DNA from: Chitinispirillales bacterium
GTDB taxonomy: Bacteria; Fibrobacterota; Chitinivibrionia; Chitinivibrionales; Chitinispirillaceae
Length of the DNA stretch: 64,000 nt
Assembly (NCBI GenBank): GCA_031254105.1
Contig: JAIRVB010000031.1
Location: 1 to 64,000, forward strand
Direction of reading: 5' to 3'
Below are positions 24,113-63,026 of this stretch, piece after piece. The stretch's first letter is position 1. Each line of letters opens with the position of its first letter. Position numbers and translations under genes: made by a program. Under the pieces are notes generated by a model, which did no database searches, was not told the origin of the DNA, and saw only the letters and a program-made list of their open reading frames with translations.

Positions 24113-24940
24113 TTATCGTGTTGGCACATAAAAACAATCATTAACCCATTTTAACGGGTTATTATCAATATATTTTGCAATCCGGCGATAATCATCATGG
24201 TCACGAATAATACGATCATGAAATGATTTTTGCCAAATCGGAAACCCCGTTTTTTTGGTAATTATACCCTTCCATTGTTGAATAACCCGCGAAACCGTCC
24301 CCGTACGGGCGATCATCGGTCGCCCGTTCCCCTCCACAATAACGTTTTTAAAAAACAATATCATATGAACATGATTTGGCATAATCACGTATTTATCAAC
24401 AGATATGTACGGGTATTTGAAAGGGATATTTTTTATTGCGACATTTGCCATTTGTCCAATATTTGATAAATTGATGTATACCATTTCCTCCGTAGGGGCG
24501 ACCATTGGTCGCCCGTCCCCATTCCCATCCCCATTCCCGTCCCCATTCCCATCCCCATTCCCATCCCCATTTCCATCCCCATTTCCATTCCCATTTCCAT
24601 TCCCATCCCCATTTCCATTCCCATCCTCATTTCCATTCCCGTCCCCATTTCCGTCCCCATCCCCATTTCCGTCCCCGTCCCCATTTCCGTCCCCGTCCCC
24701 ATTTCCATCCCCATCCTCATTTACCGAAACCATCATTGACGGATACATCGAATCTTTCGTTGACGGATACAGCGGGCGACCAATGGTCGCCCCTACGGCG
24801 GTGATGGGGGGAATATTTGTTACAATCCGTCCGAATAATTTTTCATGATTTTTGGCGCAAACGGTTATGAAATACGCACCATCCTGGCTGTAATCGTAAT
24901 CTTTTAAACGGTTAGGCTTGCGAATCGGTAAATTATTCAT
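24113..24940 (-). CDS. REP-associated tyrosine transposase (RAYT) with repeat-rich insertion
   Basis: Y1/HUH-type transposase of the IS200-like RAYT group, which act on REP palindromes. The core is recognisable at both ends: N-terminal NRLKDYDYSQDGAYFITVCAKN, HUH motif MPNHVHMILF (near residue 188) and the C-terminal SFHDRIIRDHDDYRRIAKYIDNNPLKW containing the likely catalytic Tyr. Between them, about residues 45-150 are foreign: translated REP palindromes (GATIGRP, GRPMVAPT, later GRPMIART) bracket about 70 residues of alternating Gly with Asp or Asn. The frame stays open in 275 residues against about 150-200 in typical relatives. Function may be retained if the insert loops out. Confidence 0.88.
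   Translation of the reverse strand: MNNLPIRKPNRLKDYDYSQDGAYFITVCAKNHEKLFGRIVTNIPPITAVGATIGRPLYPSTKDSMYPSMMVSVNEDGDGNGDGDGNGDGDGNGDGDGNGDGNGNEDGNGNGDGNGNGNGNGDGNGDGNGDGNGDGNGDGNGDGRPMVAPTEEMVYINLSNIGQMANVAIKNIPFKYPYISVDKYVIMPNHVHMILFFKNVIVEGNGRPMIARTGTVSRVIQQWKGIITKKTGFPIWQKSFHDRIIRDHDDYRRIAKYIDNNPLKWVNDCFYVPTR
24305..24327. repeat. REP palindrome inside the RAYT gene, copy 1
   Basis: ACGGGCGA and TCGCCCGT arms flank TCATCGG. On the coding strand it is read as GRPMIART-like sequence. Imperfect version of the GGGCGACC type. Confidence 0.75.
24492..24520. repeat. REP palindrome inside the RAYT gene, copy 2
   Basis: GTAGG head followed by GGGCGACCATTGGTCGCCC (24496-24514). It marks the left edge of the hexanucleotide tandem repeat. 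Confidence 0.85.
24515..24720. repeat. Hexanucleotide tandem repeat within the RAYT gene
   Basis: About 200 bp made of ATTCCC, ATCCCC, GTCCCC, ATTTCC and related hexamers. Because the unit is six bases, every length change of whole units keeps the RAYT frame, coding for alternating Gly-Asp and Gly-Asn dipeptides. Likely variable in length between strains. Confidence 0.9.
24770..24799. repeat. REP palindrome inside the RAYT gene, copy 3 (inverted)
   Basis: GGGCGACCAATGGTCGCCC (24774-24792) followed by CTAC, that is, the GTAGG-headed repeat in the orientation opposite to the copy at 24492. The pair forms an inverted REP couple around the tandem repeat. Confidence 0.85.
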
Positions 24941-33242: not shown

Positions 33243-34265
33243 ATGTTTATAGATGAAACAATTATCGAAGTAAAAGCGGGAGACGGCGGTAATGGCTGTC
33301 ACTCCTATGAGCGTATGAAGTATAAGCCTAAGGGCAAACCCGACGGAGGTAACGGAGGTAACGGAGGTAATATTTATCTTGCCGGTTCAAGCCAGATTCA
33401 CACTCTTCAGGACACTGCTTACCGCCGCCGTTACAAAGCGGAGCGCGGAGTTCATGGCATGGGTAAAAACATGATCGGCAGACGGGGTGAAGATGTGTTG
33501 ATACCGGTCCCCCTGGGTACCATAGTCTATGATGAAACAACCGGCGAGATAGTTCTTGACTGTCTCACAGATGGTCAGAAAGAGCTCATCGCAAATGGGG
33601 GCAGAGGCGGCAAAGGCAACGCGAGTTTAGTGACGCGCAGCAACCCAAATCCCGAATTTTGCGAACCGGGCAAACCCGGTGAGGAGAAACGGCTGAGACT
33701 TGTTCTTAAAGTATTGGCGGATGTGGGGCTCGTAGGCCGTCCAAATGCCGGAAAGTCAACATTTTTATCACGCGTATCGCGGGCGCGTCCAAAAATTGCA
33801 GACTATCCATTTACCACAAAAGAGCCGCACCTTGGTATTGTCAAAAATCAAAACGGCCCTTTCGGTTCATCTTATGTTGTAGCGGATATCCCCGGCCTTA
33901 TTGAAGATTGTCATAAGGGCAAAGGTATGGGAATTCGTTTTTTACGTCACATTGAACGCACAAGTATCCTGGTTATAATGGTGGAAGCCACCTCCGAAGA
34001 TCCTGTCGGCGACGCGAAAGTACTCATCACAGAACTTGAACACTATAGCGTTCTCCTGGCCGCAAAACCCAAATGCTTTTTGTTGACAAAAACAGACGTT
34101 TTATCCGGTGATGAGTTAAATAAAATTCCCGAAGGATGGCTCGGCGTTTCAGCGGTAACAGGCGAAGGGGTTGAGCTTGCGCTCAGGAAACTTGAAGAGC
34201 AGCTAAAAACCGCAAATTACAAAGAGATGGAAGCCCTGAAGTCAAACGAGAGCGCAGCAGACTGA
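33243..34265 (+). CDS. obg: GTPase Obg/CgtA
   Basis: Ribosome-assembly and stringent-response GTPase. The 340 residues contain the Gly-rich Obg fold (about 1-158; IEVKAGDGGNGCHSYERMKY, GKPDGGNGGNGGN), then the G domain with G1 GRPNAGKST near 166, switch DYPFTTKEPHLG, G3 DIPGLIEDCHKGKG and G4 LTKTD. The optional C-terminal OCT domain is absent, as in many phyla. The start codon is preceded by heptamer repeats rather than a Shine-Dalgarno sequence. Confidence 0.97.
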   Translation: MFIDETIIEVKAGDGGNGCHSYERMKYKPKGKPDGGNGGNGGNIYLAGSSQIHTLQDTAYRRRYKAERGVHGMGKNMIGRRGEDVLIPVPLGTIVYDETTGEIVLDCLTDGQKELIANGGRGGKGNASLVTRSNPNPEFCEPGKPGEEKRLRLVLKVLADVGLVGRPNAGKSTFLSRVSRARPKIADYPFTTKEPHLGIVKNQNGPFGSSYVVADIPGLIEDCHKGKGMGIRFLRHIERTSILVIMVEATSEDPVGDAKVLITELEHYSVLLAAKPKCFLLTKTDVLSGDELNKIPEGWLGVSAVTGEGVELALRKLEEQLKTANYKEMEALKSNESAAD

Positions 34266-34375: not shown

Positions 34376-36103
34376 ATGTTGTCTATCCGGCAAGCTGCAG
34401 TTTGTCCTTTTATAAAAATCGTATGTTTTACTCTGCTGGCAGCGAATACTGCGGTATTTGCGCAAACGTGGGAATGCGGAACAGATTTATCCGCTGTCTT
34501 GGCTGATGGTACGCTTACAATAAGCGGTTCAGGGTATATGGATAGTTACTTTGTCAATGATATTCCCTGGAATGATTACAGAAATTCCATCATCAGCGTA
34601 GTCATTGAATACGGAGTAAATTCTGTCGGGAACTACGCGTTTTATGATTGTAACAACTTAGCGTCAGTAACCATTCCCAATAGTGTAATTTATATCGGAA
34701 ACAATGCGTTCCACGGATGCAGTAAACTAACATCCATAACTGTTCCCGGCAGCGTAATTTATATTGGAAACAGCGCGTTTCAGGGCTGCGGGCATCTAAC
34801 ATCCATAACCGTTCCCGGCAGTGTAAGTTATATAAGAGACAGTACTTTCAGAGACTGCATCGGCCTGACAGATATAATCATAGGAGATGGTGTGGGTTTT
34901 ATAGGAAACGGCGCGTTTTCCGGTTGCGCCAGCCTAACCGCTGTAACCATTCCCAACGGTGTGACTTCCATAAGACACGATATTTTTGACGGCTGCAGCA
35001 AACTTGAAACTATAAATGTTACTTCAGGTAATTTAAAATACAGCTCAATAGATGGCATAGTATACAATAAAAATCTTGATACTTTAATTATGTGTCCGCA
35101 AGGAAAAACTACTGTTAACATTCCAGAAAACGTAATTTCTATCGGAAACAGCGCGTTTCACGGCTGCAATAAACTAACTTCCATAACCATCCCCAATAAG
35201 ATGAGTACTGTCGGAAACGGCGCGTTTTCCGGTTGCAACGCGTTGAGCTCCTTAACTGTCAGCGGTACGGGAGCTATGATAGATTACTCTTACGCTTCCA
35301 CAAATGCCCCCTGGCATAGTTTAAGAAATAACATTACCAACATAGTCATAGATGGTGGACTGACCTCTGTCGGAAACTCCGCGTTTCGTGATTTCAGACG
35401 CCTGAAATCCGTAACTGTTTCCGGTAACGCGGCCTATATCGGAAGCGGCGCGTTTGATGGCTGCGACAGCTTGACTTCCATAACCATTCCGGCCAGCGTA
35501 ACAGAAATCGGCGAGATGGCGTTTTATAATTGCAGCGGCTTAACTTCCATAATAAGTTTAAATCCTGTACCGCCTGAAGTAACAGGACGATTCAGCACAT
35601 TCTACAATGTAAGCAAGAGCGCGTGTACCCTGTTTATACCGGCAAACAGTACTATTGCCTACAGCTCAGCTGCTGGATGGAAATATTTCTGGAACATAGA
35701 AGCCGCGGGTTTATTATCTATCTCATCAGACGGCCGCGTAATCCCGCAGCCCAAGCCGGACACAGGATCAGGGGCAGTCATGGATGCCAACCCTGTCTCC
35801 GCTGAGTTCACTGCCGGCCCCAATCCGGTTGCTAAGTTTGCGGAAACTATCAATTTCTACCGTCAGGGCAAACGTGCAGAGAGCGCCGCCATGACAATTT
35901 TCAGCGCATCAGGTAATTTTATCAATAAGGTTAAAATAAGTGACAATTCTTTTGGAGATCAGTCCAGACGTCAAGTTGGCTCATGGAACCTCAAAGACTC
36001 TAAGAACCGAACGGTATCTGAAGGTACTTATTTGATCAAGGGAACAATCAAAACCTCAGACGGCAAGAGTGAGAAAGTGTCGTTGATTTTGGGTGTATGG
36101 TGA
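34376..36103 (+). CDS. BspA-type leucine-rich repeat surface protein
   Basis: Secreted 575-residue protein with a signal peptide (to about residue 30, VFAQ), then about ten LRR_5 units of the pattern SIGNSAFxGCxxLTSITIP (about 60-440). This repeat type is common in gut and oral anaerobes, where it mediates adhesion; the ligand is unknown here. The C-terminal about 100 residues (from FTAGPNPVAKF) are FlgD-like and closely match the tail of the GH3 enzyme at 13.3 kb, implying the same export or anchoring route. AAAGGAG precedes the ATG. Two variant units carry long inserts (NKNLDTLIMCPQGK and around PWHSLRNNIT). Confidence 0.9.
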   Translation: MLSIRQAAVCPFIKIVCFTLLAANTAVFAQTWECGTDLSAVLADGTLTISGSGYMDSYFVNDIPWNDYRNSIISVVIEYGVNSVGNYAFYDCNNLASVTIPNSVIYIGNNAFHGCSKLTSITVPGSVIYIGNSAFQGCGHLTSITVPGSVSYIRDSTFRDCIGLTDIIIGDGVGFIGNGAFSGCASLTAVTIPNGVTSIRHDIFDGCSKLETINVTSGNLKYSSIDGIVYNKNLDTLIMCPQGKTTVNIPENVISIGNSAFHGCNKLTSITIPNKMSTVGNGAFSGCNALSSLTVSGTGAMIDYSYASTNAPWHSLRNNITNIVIDGGLTSVGNSAFRDFRRLKSVTVSGNAAYIGSGAFDGCDSLTSITIPASVTEIGEMAFYNCSGLTSIISLNPVPPEVTGRFSTFYNVSKSACTLFIPANSTIAYSSAAGWKYFWNIEAAGLLSISSDGRVIPQPKPDTGSGAVMDANPVSAEFTAGPNPVAKFAETINFYRQGKRAESAAMTIFSASGNFINKVKISDNSFGDQSRRQVGSWNLKDSKNRTVSEGTYLIKGTIKTSDGKSEKVSLILGVW

Positions 36104-61039: not shown

Positions 61040-61125
61040 CTACTGCGGAACAACGGATCTCCGTCGATGGGCGCAGGAGATACCATCCGGCGCGTAACAT
61101 CAATAACTAAAACAAGTAAATTCAC

Positions 61126-61170
61126 ATGCGCAAACCGATAACCTTACTAAAAACGAGTAAATTCACATGA
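61126..61170 (+). CDS. Short upstream reading frame overlapping the flavodiiron start
   Basis: Fourteen codons, ATG CGC AAA to ACA TGA; the TGA overlaps the flavodiiron ATG as ATGA. The frame exists because about 41 bp around the start codon are tandemly duplicated (both copies contain GAGTAAATTCACATG or AAGTAAATTCACATG). It could couple translation or act as a leader; expression is unproven. Confidence 0.4.
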   Translation: MRKPITLLKTSKFT

Positions 61171-63026
61171 GAACCGGGAATCTTACCAAAAAAATTACTG
61201 ACGATTTGATTTGGGTCGGAGCCAATGACAGGCGTTTGGCGATGTTTGAGGGCGTATATTCTGTTCCGCGCGGCGTTTCTTACAACTCGTATCTTTTGAT
61301 GGATGAGAAGACCGTGTTGTTTGACACTGTAGATAAGGCAGTACGGCATAAGTTGACGGATAACATAACTTACGCGCTTGACGGCAGGAAGCTGGATTAC
61401 CTTATTGTACAACACATGGAGCCCGACCATTCCGCAATTATAGCTGAACTGGCGGAGAAATATCCCGAATTGAAAATCGTATGCAACGCGAAAACGTTAT
61501 CCTTTATCAAGCAGTTCTATAATTTTGAAATTGACTCCCGCGCGATTATTGTCAAGGAAAACGACACGCTTGTTACCGGCAGACACACTCTGCGTTTTAT
61601 CATGGCGCCTATGGTTCACTGGCCTGAGGTTATGGTTACGTACGATTCTACAGATAAAATTCTTTTTTCCGCGGACGCGTTCGGCTGCTTCGGGGCGCTC
61701 AACGGCGCGATGTTCGCCGATGAAATTGATTTTAACAGAGATTACATGGATGAGGCGAGGCGCTATTATGCAAATATAGCAGGTAAATACGGAAGTCAGG
61801 TTCAGATGCTACTTAAAAAAGCGCAAGCCCTGGAAATCGAAATGATCTGCCCGCTTCACGGATTTATCTGGCGTAAGAACATAGACCGTATCATAGCAAA
61901 ATATAATTTATGGAGCTCGTATGAGCCGGAGGAACATGGCGTTATGATTGCGTACGCTTCGGTTTATGGAAATACGGAAACCGCGGCTGAGATACTTGCG
62001 CATCGCCTGCGCGACAGGGGCGTTAAGACGGAGATGTTTGACGTTTCGGTTACGCCGGCTTCGGAAATTATCGCGGCGGCGTTTAAATGGAGCCATCTGG
62101 CGTTTGCCTCCACCACTTACAACGCCGGGATTTTTATTACAATGGAGGCGCTTATAAACGATCTTACGGCTCACAATATACAAAACCGCGCAGTCGCTAT
62201 AATAGAAAACGGATCGTGGGCTCCGACAAGCGGCAATCTTATAGCGGAAAAATTAAGCGAATGCAAAAACATAAATATTCTCGGTGAAAAGATCACCTTA
62301 AAGTCAAGCCTGAAAGAGTGTCAGCTTGCTGAGATGGATGAACTCGCGAACGTGGCTGCCGCAAGCGTTAAAGCCGCCGCCGGTGTGGTTTCAAACTCCG
62401 ATCCCATGTTAAAGCTGCCTTACGGCTTGTTTGTTTTAACGGCTAAAGACGGAGACAAAGACAACGGCTGTATTATAAATACCGCGGCGCAGATAACCGT
62501 CTCTCCGGTAAAACTTTGCGTTACGGTAAACAAGAAAAATTTTACTCATGATATGATACTTAAAACGGGAGAATTCAACATCTCCGTTCTCAGCGAAAAC
62601 GCTCCGTTCAATGTTTTTGAACGGTTTGGTTTTCATAGCGGAAAAGATACAAATAAGTTTGCGGACGCGGCCCGTGATAAACGCGCGGCAAACGGTATTC
62701 AGTATATTCACGAACACGCTAACGCCGTAATCTGCGCTAAAGTTACAGCATCTCATGATTACGGAACGCACAGCATGTTTATCGCGGATGTTACCGAAAC
62801 TTTTATGCTCTGCGGCGAGCCAAGCATGACGTATCAGCACTACTTTGACAACGTTAAGCCTAAACCTAAAATTCCGGTATCGCAGAAGAAATGTTTTGTG
62901 TGCAAAATATGCGGATATGTATACGAAGGCAACAGTTTGCCGGAAGATTATATCTGTCCGCTGTGTAAACACGGCGCGCAGGATTTCGAGATAATAACCA
63001 CAACCTCAAAAGGAGGCAAGGCATGA
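61167..63026 (+). CDS. Flavodiiron protein fused to flavin reductase and rubredoxin domains
   Basis: Reduces O2 (or NO) to water in the cytoplasm. The 619 residues contain a metallo-beta-lactamase-like diiron domain (about 1-250) with ligands in HMEPDHS, MVHWPE, SADAFG and LHGFIW, a flavodoxin domain (about 256-395; [12 protein letters not shown]), a flavin-reductase-like FMN domain (about 417-565; [15 protein letters not shown]) and a C-terminal rubredoxin (near 573-610; [10 protein letters not shown] and CPLCKHG). The fusion packs most of the electron path into one chain. It overlaps the rubredoxin gene by 4 bp; no clear Shine-Dalgarno sequence. Confidence 0.95.

Follow-up and report, generated by a model that had tools for sequence, protein, structure and literature searches.

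The window, by which we mean the whole 64,000-nt stretch of DNA that was analysed, contains on its minus strand a gene for a RAYT (TnpA-REP) protein whose reading frame holds three REP palindromes and an array of hexamers. The features are listed below (window coordinates; strand; description).

24113–24940; minus; RAYT/TnpA-REP ORF of 275 aa, matched by NCBIfam NF047646, with 4er8 as best Foldseek hit.
24774–24796; minus; site-1 REP, read as VGATIGRP, in the turn of the first beta-hairpin: foot CTAC at 24793–24796 (plus strand; GTAG on the coding strand), palindrome at 24774–24792.
24512–24722; minus; hexamer array of GGRRAY units coding (Gly-Asp/Asn)n, about 210 bp (TRF score 240).
24492–24514; plus; extra inverted REP, read as GRPMVAPT, with an intact GTAG foot at 24492–24495 and its palindrome at 24496–24514; common to the paralog on contig C27.
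24365–24379; minus; PNHVH (HUH motif), aa 188–192, near-invariant in alignments.
24303–24325; plus; site-2 REP, degenerate, read as GRPMIART, between HUH and Tyr: foot GTAC at 24303–24306, palindrome at 24307–24325 with one G.T pair.
24170–24172; minus; codon of the catalytic Tyr257 (YIDNNP); Y257, N261 and P262 are invariant in alignments.

The identification of the gene as a RAYT, made earlier in a sequence-only reading of this DNA, was confirmed. The protein matched NF047646, the model for REP-associated tyrosine transposases, with an E value of 9.9e-16 and 57.9 bits. This score does not reach the curated 80-bit cut-off of the model, which is an annotation threshold and not a biological definition; all 48 of 48 relatives matched the model at E ≤ 1e-3, L069 with 72.5 bits. 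The scope of NF047646 looks narrower than the RAYT group, and its match to the window protein is split by the insert. RAYTs combine an HUH motif with a single-Tyr Y1 fold bearing Y-x-x-x-NP, and the window protein has PNHVH, YIDNNP and the fold match to 4er8; this E. coli RAYT (4ER8) was the closest PDB structure both by sequence and by fold (Foldseek). The C-terminus extends 13 aa beyond NP. The Pfam Y1_Tnp match was weak, and matches to Pfam TrAA12 and NCBIfam MSCRAMM were discarded because they arise from the Gly/Asp/Asn repeat.

The reading frame is open from end to end, with zero internal stops. Over 128 core codons aligned with the paralog on contig C27 (L002), dN was 0.16 and dS 1.35; the dN/dS of about 0.12 in this sequence comparison indicates that the core is under purifying selection. 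In an AlphaFold2 model, pLDDT was 90–98 in the HUH core and below 50 over most of residues 64–130, and the prediction is therefore a folded core, outside which the insert forms a disordered linker. The sequence-only reading had proposed to check whether folding of the HUH core is compatible with the insert; by prediction, it is.

The three REP palindromes recognised earlier, at 24307–24325, 24496–24514 and 24774–24792, are of the type GGGCGACCnnnGGTCGCCC; 0.17 such palindromes were expected in the window, and none of 100 shuffles reached three. All three are translated in frame within the 275-aa ORF, as had been described. The REPs at 24774 and 24496 are inverted around the six-base repeats, with GTAG outward and 35-nt arms that are 91% complementary. 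Two inverted REPs with GTAG outward are a hallmark of a REPIN, and the segments 24492–24514 and 24774–24796 have this arrangement. We detected no dispersal of the whole inverted-pair unit (305 bp) across the window genome, in which the array is unique and the spacer of the paralog is different. The site-2 REP of the window gene is decaying. In TnpA-Sm, a change of the foot to GTAC abolished cleavage and kept binding (PMC8266576); by analogy with that enzyme, which belongs to a different group, the GTAC foot of the window site-2 REP would prevent cleavage, and binding might persist.

Dispersed genomic copies of the associated REP type, a further hallmark of RAYTs, are present in the window genome, and the claim that these REPs are of a type carried by that genome therefore stands: there are 28 palindromes at up to 2 mismatches, with 5 of the 10 best lying in two RAYT genes. 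Because this REP family is small, an active RAYT–REP cycle in the window genome is uncertain. The genome also encodes a second RAYT type (L005, C54:63.3–64.1k) with a different in-gene palindrome, of the GGGCGTTGC type, and a palindrome of that type likewise occurs in L032 of genome G023, in four or five copies. Short RAYT matches were found on contigs C33, C35 and C30 of the window genome (L004, L006 and L007, respectively); L004 and L006 resemble truncated C-terminal remnants and lack REPs of the window-gene type. On contig C2 (L019, around 1501; C2:7569), a riboflavin synthase-like ORF, which overlaps the rib gene that follows, includes close to its 3′ end a GGGCGGCC-type REP that is translated in frame.

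The Gly-Asp/Asn repeat linker, also described earlier, consists of 33 in-frame hexamers, 32 of them GGRRAY, and is disordered in the model. Its units are heterogeneous, with a homogeneous 12-mer end adjoining the REP at 24492–24514; the most uniform part, made up of GGGAATGGGGAT/C units, abuts this extra inverted REP, the one common to the paralog. The only G4-type motif of the window (24512–24568) lies inside the array. The array was absent elsewhere in the window genome and from 60 related genomes, save for one low-complexity hit at a contig end (G021), and among the REP-loop features of the gene it alone looks private to the window copy. A role as a phase-variation switch was ruled out because 6-base units cannot shift the frame; the length-variable regulation suggested in the sequence-only reading is not supported. 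Tandem expansions at REP sites were also found in L027 (same genus), L088, L100, L105 and L115, so that the window array, although its unit is unusual, exemplifies a general tendency to tandem expansion in these loops. The L027 gene (genome G001) carries, at CDS nt 217–466, tandem repeats of 21, 42 and 66 bp that include its own palindromes and code for a Pro/Thr/Ser-rich linker before HUH. Outside the RAYT gene, the window has a perfect 9-bp tandem repeat of ACGGAGGTA (3 copies, 33343–33370), a 41-bp repeat (2 copies, 61109–61192) and a 69-bp tandem repeat (34685–34833) that apparently codes for leucine-rich repeats of the BspA type.

The paralog on C27 contains an inverted REP pair at the same place as the site-1 pair of the window gene, with a short, different spacer that ends in a 12-bp GGGAATGGGGAC beside the second REP; it has no REP after HUH. 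Because the paralog holds GGGAATGGGGAC at this REP and the most uniform part of the array abuts the same REP, the array has probably grown by slippage from such a 12-bp seed, which the paralog still retains. We propose that loop 1 of the window gene gained the inverted REP no later than the split from the paralog, and thereafter the hexamer array, the outcome in the window copy being a disordered Gly-Asp/Asn linker outside a folded and constrained HUH core. The copy number of the array as assembled could be wrong. That the array as a whole is an assembly artefact, or the gene a pseudogene, might be suspected because the array is G-rich and of low complexity, because the assembly is a draft in 56 contigs and because the site-2 REP is degenerate, but this is very improbable given a frame that is open throughout, the low dN/dS against the paralog, and array units that are heterogeneous, lie in the interior of a 93.6-kb contig and have their seed in the paralog.

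Relatives were gathered without regard to REPs, giving a family sample of 88 distinct ORFs. At least one GTAG hairpin was present in 55 of these, and the 88 ORFs together hold 105, compared with 0.25 expected in codon shuffles. REP density was 2.24/kb in 86 family ORFs, 0.58 in the 500-nt flanks and 0.14 farther out. Site 1, with GTAG toward the gene start, lies 40–41 aa before HUH in 32 of 47 REPs, and site 2 holds one inverted REP, mostly 11–24 aa (about 14 aa) after HUH. In a model of L069, site 1 forms the turn between strands 36–40 and 49–53, and site 2 the loop that leads from the HUH strand to the long helix after it. Relatives in many gut bacteria carry an inverted pair of their own hairpins in these same two protein loops; in members from Bacteroidota and Chloroflexota, outside the Clostridia-rich part of the family, site-1 REPs are often absent. 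Because the two inverted copies bracket the HUH codons with GTAG outward, the core of the family gene has, at the level of its sequence, the layout of a REPIN. In a post hoc count, 30 of 36 genes with an in-gene pair had zero REPs in their 500-nt flanks. The idea that in-gene REPs replace flanking REPs was nevertheless rejected: the comparison of any in-gene with any flanking REP was not significant (Fisher p = 0.28), and that of full-pair genes among genes with any REP (p = 0.0025) was post hoc and is therefore not claimed.

The REPs had been taken for a one-off, recent absorption, and in this the sequence-only reading did not hold. The same two sites hold REPs in most relatives, and an inverted pair at site 1 is also present in the paralog, so that the two sites are old. 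In the comparison with relatives, the REP sites proved widespread and old, the REP sequences turn over, at both sites in concert, and the array looks private to the window copy. Closest to the earlier view is passive self-insertion, in which two loops able to tolerate insertions received mobile REPs, which then persist as relics without role or upkeep. The REPs do lie in loops that tolerate tandem expansion, other genes contain REPs too (Di Nocera 2013), and the site-2 copy of the window gene is decaying; a single fixed site, orientation and frame across the family speak against relics of this kind, as do the properties of the paired copies described below.

In 31 genes with both sites, arm identity was 0.96 within a gene, with identical arms in 24 of the 31, and 0.53 between genes; 10,000 permutations gave a maximum of 0.70. 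The result was replicated in 27 genes from 295 genomes of one order, of which 17 had both sites (0.96 within versus 0.58 between genes; permutation maximum 0.77). These permutations ignore relatedness, and a count over disjoint pairs and a test on fourfold sites are safer. Among 10 disjoint tree pairs whose REPs differ, own pairing exceeded cross pairing in 9, and over gene pairs, site-1 similarity correlated with site-2 similarity at r = 0.93.

For the fourfold-site test we used 36 gene pairs with 60–95% protein identity, in which mean fourfold identity was 0.40 versus REP identities of 0.84 and 0.85 at the two sites. REPs were often 95–100% identical in gene pairs whose fourfold sites were 14–67% identical, and in each pair they were either nearly identical at both sites (L085/L153: fourfold identity 0.14, REPs 1.00 and 0.95) or changed at both (L085/L104: 0.35, REPs 0.68 and 0.64). 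Six genes (L051, L054, L056, L072, L088 and L110) have stems that differ between their two sites, and in all six the differences preserve pairing. Imperfections are also shared: of 26 genes with long REPs, 17 retain a purine–purine mismatch at stem position 7 in both copies, and L155, L163 and L173 likewise retain a G.T at stem position 3 in both. In the E. coli system, recognition requires conserved stem mismatches (PMC8266576).

These data bear on two alternatives. A constraint on the protein, with VGxxxxxP and GxxxxxPT loops under selection and the palindromes a by-product of codon use, would fit the site-1 frame, which is the same in 41 of 47 REPs and almost always read as VG...P. Site-2 REPs, however, are read in three different frames across genes, and therefore the peptide is not what is conserved; synonymous positions within REPs are unchanged where fourfold sites outside them are saturated, and the same sequences are dispersed in the genome with GTAG feet. 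A protein-level constraint is thus extremely improbable. Passive insertion appears distinctly unlikely, since both copies are matched and hairpin-forming despite saturated fourfold sites and retain their stem mismatches at both sites.

For five of six REP types tested, the in-gene REP was most abundant in the genome of its own gene. Copy numbers in own genomes versus others were 33, 21 and 13 versus at most 9 for the ACAGGC type, 32 versus at most 9 for the L069 type, 56 and 38 versus at most 12 for the CGGGGGC type, 49 versus at most 16 for the L048 type, and 29, 39 and 90 versus at most 14 for the GCGCGC type. The L062 type (type C) failed this test, with 20 copies in its own genome versus 60 in G069. 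The copy numbers suggest that the in-gene REPs are putatively cognate to the encoded RAYT. Extragenic inverted REP pairs in genome G065 (L127–L136), several of them spaced about 156 bp from start to start, resemble a dispersed REPIN family, and the RAYT of this genome carries the same REP in frame. We also looked for RAYT fragments between the paired REPs of other inverted pairs in G065, G068 and G061; the extragenic pairs examined there had no RAYT-like frame, and the remaining pairs checked were further RAYT genes.

Because the in-gene REPs are matched, change together, are conserved beyond synonymous saturation and are mostly commonest in their own genome, we infer that they are maintained or homogenised as DNA and are not decaying relics. 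The window gene is probably a RAYT of the subclass 2.4 kind (Quentin et al. 2018, PMC6006769); two loops on the surface of such an enzyme would be encoded by REP-hairpin copies that are held as DNA. By homogenisation, in-gene copies could be renewed from dispersed REPs through RAYT-catalysed single-strand cleavage and strand transfer, or through gene conversion; by selection, they could be kept recognisable to the enzyme encoded by the same gene. One of these processes, or both, would hold the copies, and the data do not separate them.

More tentatively, and on our estimate somewhat unlikely, the in-gene inverted pair may be a functional cis element, with the RAYT acting on its own gene or transcript through the REPs that encode two of its loops and thereby keeping its specificity and the REP population in register. 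If so, the coding sequence itself would be an 'address label' for its nuclease. A narrower proposal is autoregulation, in which the RAYT would bind the in-gene REP hairpins in mRNA or single-stranded DNA and so limit its own synthesis, the window pair and G-rich array strengthening the block. Stable hairpins of cognate type within the gene of their presumed binder, an RNA fold in which the two REPs of the window pair join in a single long stem enclosing the array, and the position of the window's only G4 motif in that array are consistent with it; RAYTs, however, are known to act on single-stranded DNA and not on RNA, and hairpins in a coding region are unwound by ribosomes, and we consider autoregulation unlikely.

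The family bears on the open question of how a RAYT and its REPs keep matching each other as they evolve. Cognate pairs are mostly assigned by guesswork from the repeats that flank a RAYT gene, and a clade with the presumed target twice in frame lets the pairing be read from the gene. It offers dozens of natural specificity switches, both sites having changed together, for testing REP recognition, and its in-gene REPs clearly exemplify coding sequence in which the constraint falls on the DNA and not on the protein.

Among known systems, the REPIN (an inverted REP pair with GTAG outward; Bertels and Rainey 2011, PMC3116915) resembles the in-gene pair in orientation and feet; here, in contrast, the spacer is coding (the HUH codons, or the hexamer array in the window), and the 305-bp window unit is undispersed. 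As in a REPtron, a RAYT flanked by its REPs, one RAYT goes with its own REP type, but the REPs here lie mainly within the ORF. Rickettsial palindromic elements in ORFs, as cited in PMC3733652, are likewise translated palindromic repeats in tolerant loops; the elements described there are in unrelated genes, whereas here the host gene is the presumed mobiliser. E. coli 4ER8 shares the HUH/Y1 fold and, judged from the alignment and general knowledge of the protein, is without both REP-encoded loops. The Y-x-x-x-Q motif of IS200/IS605 TnpA is absent from the window protein, which has YIDNNP instead. The core observation of the sequence-only reading, REPs inside a RAYT gene, is already known, because Quentin et al. 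2018 (PMC6006769) reported in-frame REPs in tnpA-REP genes. In the part of that account considered here, subclass 2.4 genes, which correspond to Bertels group 4 in its table, hold in-frame REPs generally between HuH and Y and are repeat-rich and variable in length. The window gene agrees with the same part of the account in its motifs (NHVH, WQK and YIDNNP for NH[VIF]H, WQ and YIxNNP), in the absence of a C-terminal domain, and in its in-frame GTAG REPs and variable, repeat-bearing HuH–Tyr loop, where the site-2 REP at 24303–24325 lies. A literature search, with the supplements of Quentin et al. 2018 and Bertels 2017 outside its scope, found no description of a paired two-site arrangement, a matched inverted pair or concerted turnover, which as far as this search shows are new. 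Compared with the subclass 2.4 account, as far as that part of it extends, the family described here has one more fixed site, ahead of HUH; its two copies form a matched pair in inverted orientation and change in concert, and the window copy carries an additional inverted REP as well as the hexamer array.
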